DNA from: Anaerolineae bacterium
GTDB taxonomy: Bacteria; Chloroflexota; Anaerolineae; Aggregatilineales; Phototrophicaceae
DNA: 64,000 bases
Direction: 5' to 3'
NCBI GenBank assembly: GCA_013360465.1
Contig: JABWBO010000007.1
Span: forward strand, 62,001-126,000
The notes beneath the pieces were generated by a model, which did no database searches, was not told where the DNA came from, and saw only the letters and a list, made by a program, of their open reading frames with translations. Position numbers and translations under genes: made by a program. Shown piece after piece: positions 28,578 to 33,297 of the stretch; within the stretch, counting starts at the first letter, position 1; each line of letters starts with the position of its first letter.

Positions 28578-30191
28578 ATGCGTAAAATATTGTCCCTTTG
28601 GCTGGTTGCTGCGCTCCTGCTGATGGCTGCTGCGCCTTCGATGGCGCAGGATCGTCCTAGCATCAGCGATCTGCTGTCGAGCGGTGAGGTTGGCGATTTT
28701 TCCACGTTGCTGGCGGCGATCCAGGCTGCCGGACTGGGCGAAACGCTGGCTGGCGAAGGTCCTTTCACAGTACTCGCCCCGACCGATGAAGCTTTTGCCG
28801 CGGCGATGGAGTCGATGGGTCTGTCTGCCGCCGACATCGTCGCAAATCCCGATATGCTGACCAGCATCCTGCTCTATCATGTCGTCCCTGGTCGCTATTT
28901 CTTCCGCAATCTCACCGCTGGTCCTACCCTCGAAACGGCGTTGGAAGGTGAGTCCGTCACGTTCGACCTGACCGACGGCGCTTTCACCGTCAACGGCGTG
29001 GGCATCTCTAACCCCGATAACCTGGTCGCTAACGGCATCGTCCACGTGATCGACGGCGTGCTGCTGCCCGCCTCGCTGGCGGCTGCGGCGGAAGCGCCTG
29101 CCGAAACCGAAACCGCGCAGACTACTGAGACGGTCGCACCACCCGCGCGTCCCTCGATTGCCGAGCTGCTCTCTGCCGGTGAGATAGAGAGCTTCACGAC
29201 CCTGCTGGCAGCCGCTGAGGCCGCGGGGCTGACCGAAACGCTGGCGGGCGAAGGTCCTTTTACCGTCTTTGCGCCGACCGACGACGCCTTTGCGGCGCTG
29301 CTCGATGAGGTTGATCTGACGGCTGAGGACGTGCTGGCGCAGCCTGAGCTGCTGCGCGACATCCTGCTCTATCACGTTGTCCCTGGTCAGTATTTCTTCC
29401 GCAACCTGACCTCTGACCCAACGCTGACGACGGCGCTCGAAGGCGAAACGGTGAGCGTGGTGCAGGAAGGGCGCAGCCTCACGGTCAATGATGTCAACAT
29501 CACCGATGTCGATAACGTCGCCGCCAATGGTATCGTCTTCGTCACCGACGGCGTTCTGCTGACCGCGGCACAGCGCGCAGCGCTAACTCCCAGCGGTGCG
29601 CATCTGCGCGCGGCGCACTTCTCGCCCGATGCCGGTGCGGTTGATGTCTACGTCAATGGCGAAGCCAAGCTTGAAGGTGTCACCTTCGCCGCCATCAGCG
29701 CGTGGATGGATGTTCGCCCTGGAACCTACACTTTTGCCGTCGTTCCGACCGGCACCGAACCTGGCGAAGCGACGTTCAGTGTGGATATCGCCGAAGGCGA
29801 CTGGATCACCCTCGCCGCGACCGGGACGGTCGCTCGCGATACGCTGACGCTGAATGCGCTGCGCGAAGACTTCAGCCCGCTGGCGGAAAACCGCGTCCGC
29901 CTCAGCATCTTCCACGCTATCGAGAATGCCGGCGCGGTTGACATTTACGTCAACGGGGCGCTGCTGGTCGGTGCGCTTGGCTATCCTGGCGTGTTTGGCG
30001 ACAACGACGGCTTCGACATCCGCGAAGTCGGCGCCGGTTCCTATGATCTTCAGGTGCGGCTGGCGGGTTCAGGCGCGGTCGTCCTCGATCTGCCCGGTTC
30101 AACTTTCCAGCCCGGTCAGAACTATCTGCTCGCCGCGGTCGGGACGCCTGGTCTGCCCAGCCTCGCCGGGTCGGCGACGCCGGTTCAGTAA
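28578..30191 (+). CDS. Secreted protein with two fasciclin (FAS1) domains and DUF4397-like repeats
   Basis: 537 residues with a signal peptide cleaved after about Ala23 (LLLMAAAPSMAQ). FAS1 domain 1 (~28-155) and domain 2 (~190-325) each carry GPFTV(L/F)APTD(E/D)AFAA and LLYHVVPG(R/Q)YFFRNLT. Two DUF4397-like beta units follow (~335-440 and ~445-530), each with an AGAVD(V/I)YVNG core. FAS1 domains mediate adhesion and matrix binding, so a surface or matrix protein is likely. The two FAS1 copies are close paralogues from internal duplication. A strong terminator follows. Confidence 0.88.
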   Translation: MRKILSLWLVAALLLMAAAPSMAQDRPSISDLLSSGEVGDFSTLLAAIQAAGLGETLAGEGPFTVLAPTDEAFAAAMESMGLSAADIVANPDMLTSILLYHVVPGRYFFRNLTAGPTLETALEGESVTFDLTDGAFTVNGVGISNPDNLVANGIVHVIDGVLLPASLAAAAEAPAETETAQTTETVAPPARPSIAELLSAGEIESFTTLLAAAEAAGLTETLAGEGPFTVFAPTDDAFAALLDEVDLTAEDVLAQPELLRDILLYHVVPGQYFFRNLTSDPTLTTALEGETVSVVQEGRSLTVNDVNITDVDNVAANGIVFVTDGVLLTAAQRAALTPSGAHLRAAHFSPDAGAVDVYVNGEAKLEGVTFAAISAWMDVRPGTYTFAVVPTGTEPGEATFSVDIAEGDWITLAATGTVARDTLTLNALREDFSPLAENRVRLSIFHAIENAGAVDIYVNGALLVGALGYPGVFGDNDGFDIREVGAGSYDLQVRLAGSGAVVLDLPGSTFQPGQNYLLAAVGTPGLPSLAGSATPVQ

Positions 30192-30255: not shown

Positions 30256-31644
30256 TCATGGAACCGGCGTCCCGCCCTCCGTTGCCGGCGGTTCGACCGT
30301 CCTCTGTCGGGCAGTTGACGGCGCTTCAGGGACTCGCACCTCGGTCATCGGCGGATGTCCCGCAGTATCTTCTTCCGCAGGCGGCGCTGCCGGTTTGAAG
30401 ACCAGTGCAGCAAAGACGCGGGTCAGGTCCCCTTCCAGACGCCGCGCAAACGCCCTGCGCGACTCGCCGTGACGCTGTCCGTAAAACGAATAGCCAAACT
30501 GCTCGACCGCATCATTTGCCGATGAGTAGGTGGGCAGCGCCGTCCAGGAATCGAAGGGCTGCCACTCGCCGCCAGCGCAGCGCCAGAGTTCAAAATGCAT
30601 ACGCGCCAGATCGCGTTCCCCTTTGAATCGCACATCGACGGCGATCGGCAGAATCGCGCTGCGCTTATCGCTGTACTTCAGGATATCTTTGGTCAGTGCG
30701 CGGGCAACCGGACGAGCGGCACCCAGAGCCGCTTTTTCATTGAGCTTCCTGCGCCGCGCCGCGCGATCCAGCCGCCGCACAGCGCGCCGCCCCATCGTGT
30801 GATGAGTCCGGTTGATGCGCCCGTACTGGTCATATCGTCCTGAGCGAATGCCGACGATATGCCAGCCGTCGAACCTGCCGCCGCCTGCGCCGATCAGCAG
30901 CTTGCGCGCGATCACACTCCCCGAAGGACAGGGCATCGGCAGATGATCGCTCTGCGCATGCTGCTGCCAGAGATAGCGGCGTCCATCGGTCGTGTTCGGG
31001 TCAATGACCGCCGGAGCGGGATACATCGGCTGCCACACGCCGAACGGTTCAGGCTTCGACCGGGTCAGCCGGATGATGACCCAGATCACCCACAGCAGCA
31101 GCAGGCACAGCGCGGCAATGCCGATCGCCAGTGCCGTCTGAACCGGATCGTTGAGATCAACCTGCACCGGCAGTGGAATATTCAGGATGCTGGTTGGCGT
31201 CGGTGTGGATAACGGGGCCGGCGGCATCTCTACCAGTGGAGGGGCGTTCACCATGATAGAGGCGATGTTGCCGCGCCCGGTCAGCGTGCCGCCGGGCAGT
31301 GTATCCAAGCCGACCGTGATGTACAGGTTGGATCGCACACCGGGCGGCAGCCGGTCCAGCGGCGCAAACAGTACGACGGAAGCGCGTGTCTGAGGTTCCA
31401 GCGGCATGAGGGGCGCTGAATTCAGTTCCACGCCGCGCTCATCGAACAACCGGACAATCGATGCCGCAGTCGCCACGTTTCCGTCGTTGCGTACATCCAG
31501 CTCGACGATGATGCTCCGCCCGTCATCGCTGAGTCGGCTGCTGGGACTGCGAATCAGCAGCGTATCGCCCTGTGCCCGGCTTGCGAATGCGGTCAGACCG
31601 ACCCACAGCATTACGATCATCATCAGCCAACGGGTGCGAATCAT
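30256..31644 (-). CDS. Signal-peptide protein with Ig/CARDB-like domain, TM and cytoplasmic tail
   Basis: 462 residues: signal peptide (~1-24), an extracellular beta domain (~30-130, ELDVRNDGNVATAASIVRLF) resembling CARDB/NPCBM-type Ig modules, a Pro/Thr linker, one TM (~172-192, IGIAALCLLLLWVIWVII), and a ~270-residue cytoplasmic part rich in Arg and Lys with no family that I recognise. It ends in a Pro/Glu-rich tail. The type I orientation suggests coupling of an outside domain to a cytoplasmic role. It is monocistronic. Confidence 0.7.
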   Translation of the reverse strand: MIRTRWLMMIVMLWVGLTAFASRAQGDTLLIRSPSSRLSDDGRSIIVELDVRNDGNVATAASIVRLFDERGVELNSAPLMPLEPQTRASVVLFAPLDRLPPGVRSNLYITVGLDTLPGGTLTGRGNIASIMVNAPPLVEMPPAPLSTPTPTSILNIPLPVQVDLNDPVQTALAIGIAALCLLLLWVIWVIIRLTRSKPEPFGVWQPMYPAPAVIDPNTTDGRRYLWQQHAQSDHLPMPCPSGSVIARKLLIGAGGGRFDGWHIVGIRSGRYDQYGRINRTHHTMGRRAVRRLDRAARRRKLNEKAALGAARPVARALTKDILKYSDKRSAILPIAVDVRFKGERDLARMHFELWRCAGGEWQPFDSWTALPTYSSANDAVEQFGYSFYGQRHGESRRAFARRLEGDLTRVFAALVFKPAAPPAEEDTAGHPPMTEVRVPEAPSTARQRTVEPPATEGGTPVP

Positions 31645-31886
31645 TGCATCTTTGCCTGTCTGCCGTGCAGAGACCTCGAAACCCTCCCTACCACTATAGA
31701 CAGCTTTGCCAGACTCTCCAAGTCGATTGTCCTACGCTTCGGCAACTGAAAGCCCGCTCAGTCACAGCGCGCGTGACGACTCTGACCGCCTTCTGTCCGT
31801 TTTATGTCCGCTTCTGGGGGACAAGCCGCCGCCAATTTGAAAGGATGAGGTCATCGCTCGTTTGTCTTCGCCAGGAGTACTTGCGC

Positions 31887-32000
31887 ATGACCAGCCAACC
31901 GCTCTTCCACGCTGACCCGCCGCTGCCCCCTATTCCCCCGCCGAACGATCCTTCTCGGCGAGGCGATCCGCCGCTGCCCCCCATTCCTCCGCCGAACTAG
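31887..32000 (+). CDS. Proline-rich microprotein, 37 residues
   Basis: A very short ORF with an excellent ribosome site (AGGAG, 9 nt before ATG 31887), followed 25 nt after its stop by a strong terminator. After MTSQPLFHA the peptide has two identical 11-residue units, DPPLPPIPPPN, separated by DPSRRG. The DNA of the two units differs at several third positions while the peptide is identical, which favours protein-level selection. It has no signal peptide. Proline-rich PPLPP stretches could bind SH3-, WW- or EVH1-like partners or form a PPII rod. No homologue is known to me. Confidence 0.6.
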   Translation: MTSQPLFHADPPLPPIPPPNDPSRRGDPPLPPIPPPN

Positions 32001-32024
32001 ATCACCGCATACTGCCATTCGGGC

Positions 32025-32068
32025 AAAAGAGGACCGGGTGGCGCGGCGACGTCAGCCGGTCCTCTTTT
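32025..32068. terminator. Rho-independent terminator after the microprotein ORF
   Basis: A perfect 13-bp stem (32025-32037 with 32056-32068) with AAAA at the left base and TTTT at the right, so it can act in both directions. It also serves the minus-strand TPR gene ending at 32098. Confidence 0.8.
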
Positions 32069-32097
32069 CGGGGCTGCCGCTTCGACGCGATCTACCG

Positions 32098-33297
32098 CTA
32101 ACCGGGTGGGCAGTCCAGCAAAGCGATCTTCTCAAGGATCAGCCGCTCCAACTGTTCACGGGCAGCGTGGCGCTCCACTTTCGCCACCGCCTCAAAGGCA
32201 CGCCGGAAAAGCTGACAGGCGAATCCGCGCGTCTCAACCGATCGATCCATTTCGATGAAGGCGCGGGTGTAGGTAGCATGCGCCATCATGTAGGCATTGC
32301 CGAGATATTCCCAAATGCTGTGCGCCTCTTCAATTGCCTCAGCCGCCTCATCCATAAGCCGCAGTTTCAGGCACGCCAGCGACAATCCGACATAACACAG
32401 CCCGGTCTCGTAGGCATTCTCGCGCCCCTCGATGTACAGCACCGCCTCCTGAAACCGATCCAGGGCTTCGTTGGGCCGATCCAGTTCCAACCGGACGCAG
32501 CCTTCCTCATAACACAGCAGCACGTAATTCTTTGGATGCTGGTTGGTCTTCGGGTAGGTTTCGCGCGCGCGCCGCAATATCTCTGCGCTCGCCTGCCAGT
32601 CGTCTAATTGGCGAAGCAGAGTCGCCTGAATCAGCAGCGATCGAAGCAGCAGGTTCTGCTCCTGCAGGCGAACAGCGATCTCGACGCTCAGGGTCACGTG
32701 ACTGCGAGCGAGATCCATCTCCTGACGATGGATATGGGCGACAGCGATCATCTGATGGATCAACGCCTTCAGGTCTTCGCGCTCGCTGCGAGCGGCGATC
32801 TCCAGCGCTTCGCCAAACTGCGCGGCATCGAAGCGTGGATGAGGCGACAGGATATAGGTCTCGATCAATCCGGCGTAGGACTCCAGCAGGAAATCTTCAT
32901 TCCGCTGATCGGCATATCCCTGTGCCTGCTGAAGCAGCGTGTTCGCCCTGGAAGGCTCGCCGATCATGTTGTGATAACGCGCCAGGGCAATCGAAAGCCG
33001 CGCGAGCAGGTCTTTGTCTCCCAGGTCCTGAGCGAATACCAGCGACTCGATCAGGCGATGCCACCACGGCTGGAACATCCGACTGGTGAGCATGACGGGC
33101 AGGATGTTCATCAGCGTATCGACAGCGTAATGATAGTACAGCCCGCGATTGACCGTCGCCCGGATCACGCCGTTGATCCGGTCCGCATTGTTGAGCAGCC
33201 AACCCCGATCATAAGCATGGTCATTGATGATTTGGAGTGAGCGCATCATATCGCCATCTCCGCCGGGATACTCCGGCAAATCTCCGGAAGTCATCAT
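32098..33297 (-). CDS. Tetratricopeptide-type helical repeat protein
   Basis: 399 residues, soluble and almost entirely helical. Successive ~40-residue units contain TPR-like A/B helix pairs (for example LARLSIALARYHNMIGEPSR, CYEEGCVRLELDRPNEALDR, CYVGLSLACLKLRLMDEAAE). There is no enzymatic domain and no HTH. Such repeats resemble the C-terminal halves of MalT/AfsR-type regulators, but nothing N-terminal of that kind is present. It is monocistronic, and its role is unknown beyond protein interaction. Confidence 0.75.
   Translation of the reverse strand: MMTSGDLPEYPGGDGDMMRSLQIINDHAYDRGWLLNNADRINGVIRATVNRGLYYHYAVDTLMNILPVMLTSRMFQPWWHRLIESLVFAQDLGDKDLLARLSIALARYHNMIGEPSRANTLLQQAQGYADQRNEDFLLESYAGLIETYILSPHPRFDAAQFGEALEIAARSEREDLKALIHQMIAVAHIHRQEMDLARSHVTLSVEIAVRLQEQNLLLRSLLIQATLLRQLDDWQASAEILRRARETYPKTNQHPKNYVLLCYEEGCVRLELDRPNEALDRFQEAVLYIEGRENAYETGLCYVGLSLACLKLRLMDEAAEAIEEAHSIWEYLGNAYMMAHATYTRAFIEMDRSVETRGFACQLFRRAFEAVAKVERHAAREQLERLILEKIALLDCPPG

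Follow-up and report, generated by a model that had tools for sequence, protein, structure and literature searches.

Several described systems pair a TPR protein with a small peptide. The RRNPP or RRNPPA pairs include Rap–Phr, NprR–NprX, PlcR–PapR, Rgg–SHP and AimR–AimP. The accessible text of PMC10075063 sets the limits of RRNPP systems at 250–500 aa for the TPR protein and at −60 to 400 bp for its distance from the peptide gene, and duplicated pheromones are described for Rap–Phr systems in the accessible text of PMC11343458. In the RopB–LCP system, as covered by the available part of PMC10518010, very short leaderless ORFs stand beside the TPR receptor gene; LCPs are mostly 8–10 aa, highly hydrophobic and encoded divergently from ropB. 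A TPR fold can also accommodate proline-rich ligands, as in collagen prolyl 4-hydroxylase, whose TPR-type peptide-substrate-binding domain takes up such peptides in the polyproline-II form, with (PPG)3 and (Pro)9 among the ligands (PMC12433258, available part). The locus described here sets a very short proline-rich gene convergently against a TPR gene in a genome of the Anaerolineae, a class of Chloroflexota.

The window, the whole 64,000-nt stretch that was analysed, is drawn from contig C84 (62001–126000) of a 5.9-Mb draft genome (G000). The micropeptide gene occupies 31887–32000 of the forward strand, from ATG to TAG with the stop included, and its 37-aa product is MTSQPLFHADPPLPPIPPPNDPSRRGDPPLPPIPPPN. 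A Shine–Dalgarno sequence, AGGAG (31873–31877, forward strand), lies 9 nt before the ATG and is conserved in G006, the one close relative carrying the window ORF and itself an Anaerolineae MAG. Two DPPLPPIPPPN units of 33 nt and 11 aa (31914–31946 and 31965–31997, forward strand) share 91% of their bases; the three that differ are all synonymous third positions. An earlier note on this DNA had described a 37-residue proline-rich frame with a strong Shine–Dalgarno sequence and two identical units distinguished by purely synonymous changes, and both descriptions hold. The operator, the leader block, the TPR partner and the peptide family described below were not noticed there. The partner gene, on the reverse strand at 32098–33297, encodes a TPR protein of 399 aa, and 97 nt separate the two stop codons. 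Within this interval stands a symmetrical hairpin of the intrinsic-terminator type (32025–32068, forward strand), in which a perfect 13-bp outer stem pairs 32025–32037 with 32056–32068 around an inner stem, ending in TTTT. For the 61-nt hairpin region the folding energy is −33.1 kcal/mol and z is −3.9, a stability equalled by none of 200 shuffles, and G006 keeps the hairpin by using G-U pairs. Base 25 past the stop codon is the first of the stem, which agrees with the earlier note. That note's attribution of the hairpin to the micropeptide gene as its own terminator stands in part: the hairpin is present, but it is symmetrical, with a fold on the opposite strand as well (−26.7). The convergent TPR gene might just as readily end there, and the hairpin is probably common to both. 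A hairpin followed by at least four T in eight bases was found at 27 of 28 scanned loci, weakly in G026 and G084 and not in G153; the scan left out G061, G081, G036, G067, G017 and G016. A simple terminator scan with loops of 3–8 did not return the window hairpin, and an Rfam search of 31500–32200 at E values up to 1 gave zero matches.

The TPR gene is the constant neighbour of the micropeptide gene. A search profile (A1) was built from 21 TPR proteins, each 13–22% identical to that of the window. Orthologues at E < 1e-50 were found in 32 of 98 genomes of the family, the next matches being about 4e-32 or weaker and mostly far longer ORFs. At the 3′ end of the TPR gene a convergent micropeptide ORF is present in 30 of these 32 genomes, one of them weak (G016); in G121 and G079 the TPR loci end at contig ends, G079 being judged by coordinates. 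Twenty-four of the 32 were previously known to carry the peptide. Six loci (G061, G081, G036, G067, G017 and G016) were examined from the TPR match alone, and a peptide was present in all six, again weak in G016. G033 supplies a 31st peptide beside a TPR gene that is cut by the contig end yet recognisable (E 4e-12). In all 24 measured family loci the TPR gene is convergent, with 5–282 nt between the peptide stop and the last TPR sense codon, whereas the gene upstream of the peptide changes between loci. The peptide gene and the TPR gene thus travel as a pair. Genes of 11–21 aa are easily overlooked by gene callers, and these peptides are too variable and too low in complexity for ordinary homology search; their fixed position beside one TPR gene makes the whole peptide family visible.

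The pairing is sharpest within the genus. The locus is flanked by genes for a 462-aa putative exported protein, for which a Pfam search gave no match, and a glucose/sorbosone dehydrogenase; both flanks have matches in 15 of 15 genus genomes. Micropeptide and TPR protein are both at the locus in eight (G000, G006, G005, G014, G001, G013, G012 and G004), where the convergent TPR frames are 399–521 aa long. In the other seven (G002, G003 and G007–G011) the locus lacks both genes, and nowhere in the genome does a TPR match reach E 1e-18. Joint presence and absence gives a Fisher p of 1.6e-4, ignoring phylogeny. Other features were seen in the surroundings. Near the module, 28578–30191 (forward strand) encodes a 537-aa protein in which fasciclin and DUF4397 stretches each occur twice. 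A conserved promoter-like TGGAGA...TATAGT (31693–31720, reverse strand) belongs to the 462-aa gene, within a block (31689–31740) that is 98% identical in G006; by eye, a CTATA/CCAA-like block upstream of the 462-aa gene recurs in several other genus genomes. At L204 (G016:C94:29000–38500) three consecutive TPR paralogues are encoded, and the ORF MLFPILP, with no recognisable operator, stands at the 3′ end of the array, the one end that was read. A class-level search also returned TPR homologues in four f42 genomes (E 9e-37 to 3e-42), and at the 3′ ends read no recognisable micropeptide was found.

Since its gene appears and disappears with the TPR gene and its product is extended and proline-rich, the window micropeptide is most simply taken as the cognate ligand of the convergent TPR protein of about 400 aa. 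We place the probability of this reading at about one half. Two precedents make it concrete, the RRNPP pairs (PMC10075063) and a polyproline-II-binding TPR domain (PMC12433258), each as far as the accessible text of the source goes. The proposed mechanism would run as follows. (i) A promoter region with three TGTCCG boxes phased at 11 bp would control the micropeptide transcript. (ii) In about half of the family, though not in the window, a leader hairpin that pairs around the Shine–Dalgarno sequence may tune translation. (iii) The leaderless micropeptide would present its proline-rich motif, duplicated in the window, as the ligand of the TPR protein. (iv) Lying extended, much as in a polyproline-II helix, the peptide would occupy the concave groove of the TPR superhelix. 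(v) The bound peptide would switch the interaction of the TPR protein with a target. From the pairing we infer binding, the direction of regulation, action inside the cell as against export and re-import, and the output. The ligand reading has limits in the f42 homologues, with no such peptide seen at the 3′ ends read, and in family f2, where the neighbours differ (TPR-CHAT, none, contig edge).

The same synteny is open to a plainer account, in which an intracellular microprotein acts on some target other than the TPR protein and the two genes are merely co-travelling neighbours. Synteny alone is no proof of interaction, and G044 (f2) may have the operator and peptide with no TPR gene next to them. 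Against this stand the persistence of the TPR gene while the upstream neighbour changes and the joint absence of both genes from this place in seven of the 15 genomes of the genus, and we consider the account unlikely, although it is the strongest of the alternatives to a TPR ligand.

The micropeptides form a family across 31 genomes of one Chloroflexota family. They are 7–49 aa long, 26 of the 31 falling at 11–21 aa, and are 36% proline. PP is present in 30, and PPP or PP-x(0–4)-PP in 25; the peptides vary around a motif like P/G-x-PP-xx-PP. Genus members include G005 (MNTFETDGPRPPIIPPGSITR), G001 (MSLSYGGPTPPIIPPGSAE) and G012 (MFGYDGPRPPTPWGP) besides those of G000, G006, G014, G013 and G004, the last being 49 aa long with a tandem repeat of another unit, of 18 aa. 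Members elsewhere in the family are G061 (MKKPGPWPPFPPPPSR), G081 (MNTGSGGGTTNGGPGGPIIPPPMQ), G036 (MSTLQRGPGRPPIIPPFE), G067 (MGPLPMPGPIPPPR) and G017 (MNFGHPPWPTPPKC); the 7-aa ORF MLFPILP of G016, which lacks the operator, is a weak case. Hydrophobic runs (A, I, L, M, F, V, W, G or C) never exceed four residues in the 31 peptides, which makes a Sec signal very unlikely. With no secretion signal evident, a pheromone role is disfavoured in the family of the window; from the pairing itself, an intracellular ligand or inhibitor is as compatible as a pheromone.

Ordinary searches recover little of this family. The 37-aa peptide, used in a whole-protein search of 61 relatives, rose above noise only in G000 and G006; a rough scripted look at weaker matches, with several frames missing, found no similar gene. 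The earlier note had proposed looking for PPLPPIPPPN in relatives, and this recovered the double unit in G006 only, five other stretches being longer or unrelated proline-rich frames. A first pattern from four peptides matched 11 times, in 8 of 98 genomes. Four of these were known loci and the other seven (L088–L090, L095–L098) were rejected on reading the DNA, including L088, a suggestive 17-codon frame without a start codon and without an operator. L096 (G064:C17) carries an extremely proline-rich ORF of about 100 aa, beginning MNTYNNTRMIIPPVPTPP, which exceeds micropeptide length.

Upstream of the window gene, 76 nt before the ATG, stands an operator-like array, TGACCG/TGTCCG/TGTCCG (31783–31810, forward strand), of 6-bp boxes spaced 11 bp from start to start. 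It departs by one mismatch from TGTCCG-N5-TGTCCG-N5-TGTCCG, and the array of G006 by none. At six of the eight genus loci the TGTCCG-like boxes keep the 11-bp spacing and show no more than two mismatches (G012 has four, G004 seven), and the best three-box match has at most two mismatches of 18 at 25 of 31 family loci, the exceptions being G081 (3), G012 (4), G036 (4), G067 (5), G004 (7) and G016 (9). Random stretches of 130 nt from these loci never came below five mismatches, so the boxes of G067, G004 and G016 are no better than background. At one mismatch or fewer, the three-box pattern gave 43 matches in 38 of 154 genomes of the order, against three for a reversed control. On reading, 21 were family micropeptide loci, three lay in f2, one in f8 (G139) and 12 in g17; at the six others no such peptide was seen. 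The 12 g17 matches (L149, L151–L158 and L164) have triple boxes of the TGTCC(G/T) type 11 bp apart and stand, by eye, upstream of ORFs with secreted-like starts, and a similar operator may there have a second use. Three TGTCCG boxes without a mismatch also occur in array at position 2045 of L141 (G003:C48), in a genome lacking the module; over 5.6 kb of L141, no micropeptide was seen downstream and no TPR-profile match was found. The idea of a wider regulon was rejected: across the 15 genus genomes a two-box pattern gave 17 matches against 14 for the reversed control, with seven of the 17 at module loci and the remaining ten at chance level. The TPR genes themselves showed no box pair upstream.

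Between operator and gene lies a conserved leader block, TTTGAAAGGATGAGGTCATCG (31836–31856, forward strand; alignment A2). Its consensus over 31 aligned leaders is approximately TTTGAGATGCTGnAnnCATCG; the block is common to all 31 family loci, and the operator to most. In many leaders the Shine–Dalgarno site has a pairing partner in a CTG... arm. Over 29 leaders the arms pair better with their own partner than with swapped ones (none of 20,000 permutations was as good), and the own arm is among the best three of 28 swaps in 16 of the 29, although arm swapping does not remove relatedness among leaders. The window leader has no such hairpin (own 9.0, swapped mean 10.3). Folding gave a mean z of −1.95 over 34 leaders, 11 of which were no better than z = −1.

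PPP and PP-x(0–4)-PP are ribosome stalling motifs. Translation itself might then be what matters, with Pro-Pro codons on a regulatory small RNA stalling ribosomes as an EF-P-dependent sensor. The occurrence of such motifs in 25 of 31 peptides, and a possible leader hairpin near the Shine–Dalgarno sequence in many members, would suit such a device. Yet the next gene, that of the TPR protein, is convergent at every measured locus, which leaves no co-directional gene directly downstream to attenuate; an attenuation leader is thus ruled out. Non-proline residues are also kept, in both G070/G073 and G000/G006, and the window leader is without the hairpin. A stalling sensor accordingly seems doubtful, a little more so than a microprotein with another target.

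A ligand, as opposed to an RNA, calls for a translated product. Between G000 and G006 the ORF differs at 11 nt (1, 1 and 9 at the three codon positions) with zero indels, and the counterpart protein is 95% identical to the window micropeptide. Nine codon changes are synonymous and two nonsynonymous, where 6.2 nonsynonymous codons would be expected if substitutions of the same kind were put at random positions in the ORF (permutation p 0.0028; a repeat run gave 6.0 and p 0.0039). No synonymous bias was found in 5′ extensions of the frame from starts at 31845 or 31749. With mostly synonymous change against G006, the window ORF looks translated and constrained. The earlier note had named a frame not conserved in close relatives, along with missing ribosome footprints, as what would refute the gene; the frame is conserved in G006. 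The claim of the earlier note that this is a real microgene is upheld by the substitution pattern, by the kept Shine–Dalgarno sequence and hairpin and by similar micropeptides in 31 genomes; on these sequence grounds, a short proline-rich microgene is real here. Four peptide pairs were informative elsewhere and here. Purifying bias was found in two: G000/G006, and G070/G073 with seven synonymous and one nonsynonymous codons (p 0.0008). None was found in G001/G013 (three synonymous, seven nonsynonymous, p 0.33) or G026/G062 (one and three, p 0.23); the ORFs of G062 and G072 are identical. The family therefore appears to extend from peptides under constraint among close relatives to ones that change fast.

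The transcript might alternatively be a regulatory RNA, or its 3′ end an antisense to the TPR mRNA, with the ORF incidental. The conserved leader, the common hairpin and the convergent layout would all fit. The synonymous bias in two pairs does not, and a Shine–Dalgarno-like run of at least four bases precedes the ATG at 34 of 34 loci (15 nt away in G001). A background filter was also applied to 290,378 both-strand bases of 26 loci, demanding a Shine–Dalgarno sequence, an ATG, 7–50 aa, PP and at least 40% P+G. It recovered 16 of 22 distinct micropeptide ORFs together with two internal starts of the same peptides, missing G070, G022, G021, G084, G036 and G016, and gave zero matches elsewhere in those bases. 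An RNA with an incidental frame is improbable on this evidence. That the frame is a chance one, such as the shadow of a Gly-rich antisense gene, is scarcely credible: a 60-aa antisense ORF does have wobble positions in common with the micropeptide frame, and a DNA match to the region in G005:C497, rejected as a counterpart, reads, in reverse complement, as a coding-like segment rich in Gly, but the antisense frame fits more poorly (four nonsynonymous of 11, p 0.065, against two, p 0.003), its stop at 31802–31804 is not kept in the G006 alignment, and the family evidence contradicts chance.

Two other families bear on the ligand reading. In G139 (f8) a perfect three-box array is followed by a 69-aa ORF with GAGGAG upstream (L129:310–519, forward strand), which reads MKRRIILIAVVLVFALAAALPLAVPAADD...HFDPPCPPGSSPTDGGGC. 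The ORF opens with a strongly hydrophobic stretch (hydropathy averaging 3.3 across 15 residues), its tail contains ...HFDPPCPPG..., and a TPR homologue (L129:535–1872, reverse strand; local profile E 2.4e-38) faces it convergently 15 nt away. This single locus suggests an exported form of the peptide. In G153 (f2) a 16-aa Gly-rich peptide ORF with a three-box operator (L161:2171–2221, forward strand) is convergent with the gene for a 1023-aa TPR-CHAT (caspase-like) protein (L161:2251–5319, reverse strand), which scores 44 bits against the Csx29 model, whose cut-off is 300. Of the other f2 operator-plus-peptide loci, G044 faces no TPR gene and G150 meets a contig end. Polyproline micropeptides of the Chloroflexota, leaderless or with a signal-like start and with pheromone-type diversification, might together with their own convergent TPR receptors and the operator of three boxes at 11 bp make up an undescribed peptide-signalling module. 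We put this forward tentatively, as possible rather than probable; the signal-bearing ORF of G139 and its convergent TPR homologue raised our estimate. Were this so, communication between peptides and TPR proteins would reach past the Firmicutes, its ligands would include a new chemical class, and in one lineage it may act through a CHAT protease. Should the TPR protein prove to be a receptor, the locus would be a compact peptide–receptor pair in a phylum for which the literature searched listed no such system, and would offer about 30 natural ligand–receptor pairs for the reading of polyproline peptides by TPR grooves.

The TPR protein resembles several solenoids. Pfam recognises TPR_12 in 20 of 21 family TPR proteins and ComR_TPR in one; no DNA-binding, HTH or Rap-type effector domain was found by Pfam in the 21, and the window protein has no CHAT match. 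Among the best 60 of 127 PDB profile matches, LGN/Pins stands first (1e-18), followed by RapI (9e-18), with bacterial kinesin light chain (KLC), NprR, Rap3T and AfsR also present, so that unrelated TPR structures match as well as the Rap/NprR receptors. NCBIfam gave only matches below cut-off (NsdA family regulator, 1.9e-6) and PADLOC one marginal TPR match (7e-4); a single-sequence structure prediction of the window TPR protein reached a mean pLDDT of 50.8. The profile matches point to a TPR solenoid of the peptide-binding type, not to family membership. In the literature searched, which lay outside subscription papers and preprints, the matches listed held no such peptides and no RRNPP-type systems in Chloroflexota; in PMC13118402 'RRNPP' and 'Chloroflexi' co-occur in the reference list only. 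As far as that literature goes, the micropeptide family and its TPR linkage are new.

Comparison with the described systems brings out likenesses and differences. The RopB–LCP system likewise has a very short leaderless ORF adjoining a TPR gene, as far as the available part of PMC10518010 describes it. The peptides here differ in being proline-rich (36%) and convergent, in a length of 37 aa in the window and in hydrophobic runs of at most four; they are not the highly hydrophobic 8–10-aa products beside a RopB-clan receptor by which LCPs are recognised, and an HTH was found in 0 of 21 TPR proteins. The TPR-CHAT (Csx29-like) proteins are approached by the 1023-aa convergent neighbour in G153, with 44 of the 300 bits required for Csx29. 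This is a single f2 case with a Gly-rich peptide, and the window TPR protein is without a CHAT match. Collagen prolyl 4-hydroxylase, in the accessible text on it, combines a TPR fold with proline-rich peptides; it is a eukaryotic enzyme domain with no adjacent gene pair and can be likened by fold and ligand. The RRNPP pairs are alike in several respects. The window TPR protein, at 399 aa with TPRs, lies within 250–500 aa; the RRNPP peptide gene encodes 10–100 aa at −60 to 400 bp, and that of the window encodes 37 aa at 97 nt (G016 has only 7 aa). Profile matches of the TPR protein take in RapI (9e-18), NprR and Rap3T, but those to the TPRs of LGN, KLC and AfsR are comparable and do not single out the RRNPP receptors. 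Rap–Phr duplication, in the accessible part of PMC11343458, is resembled by the duplicated motif of G000 and G006 and, with a different unit, of G004. The differences are the phylum (Chloroflexota here, Firmicutes there), the convergent genes, the 31 family peptides without an evident secretion signal (one appears in G139 of f8), peptides that are mostly 13–24 aa and proline-rich, TPR proteins in which no HTH or other effector domain is recognised, and the three-box operator. The micropeptide–TPR pair would work like the RRNPP pairs, which is a likeness in mode of action and not an assignment to that group.
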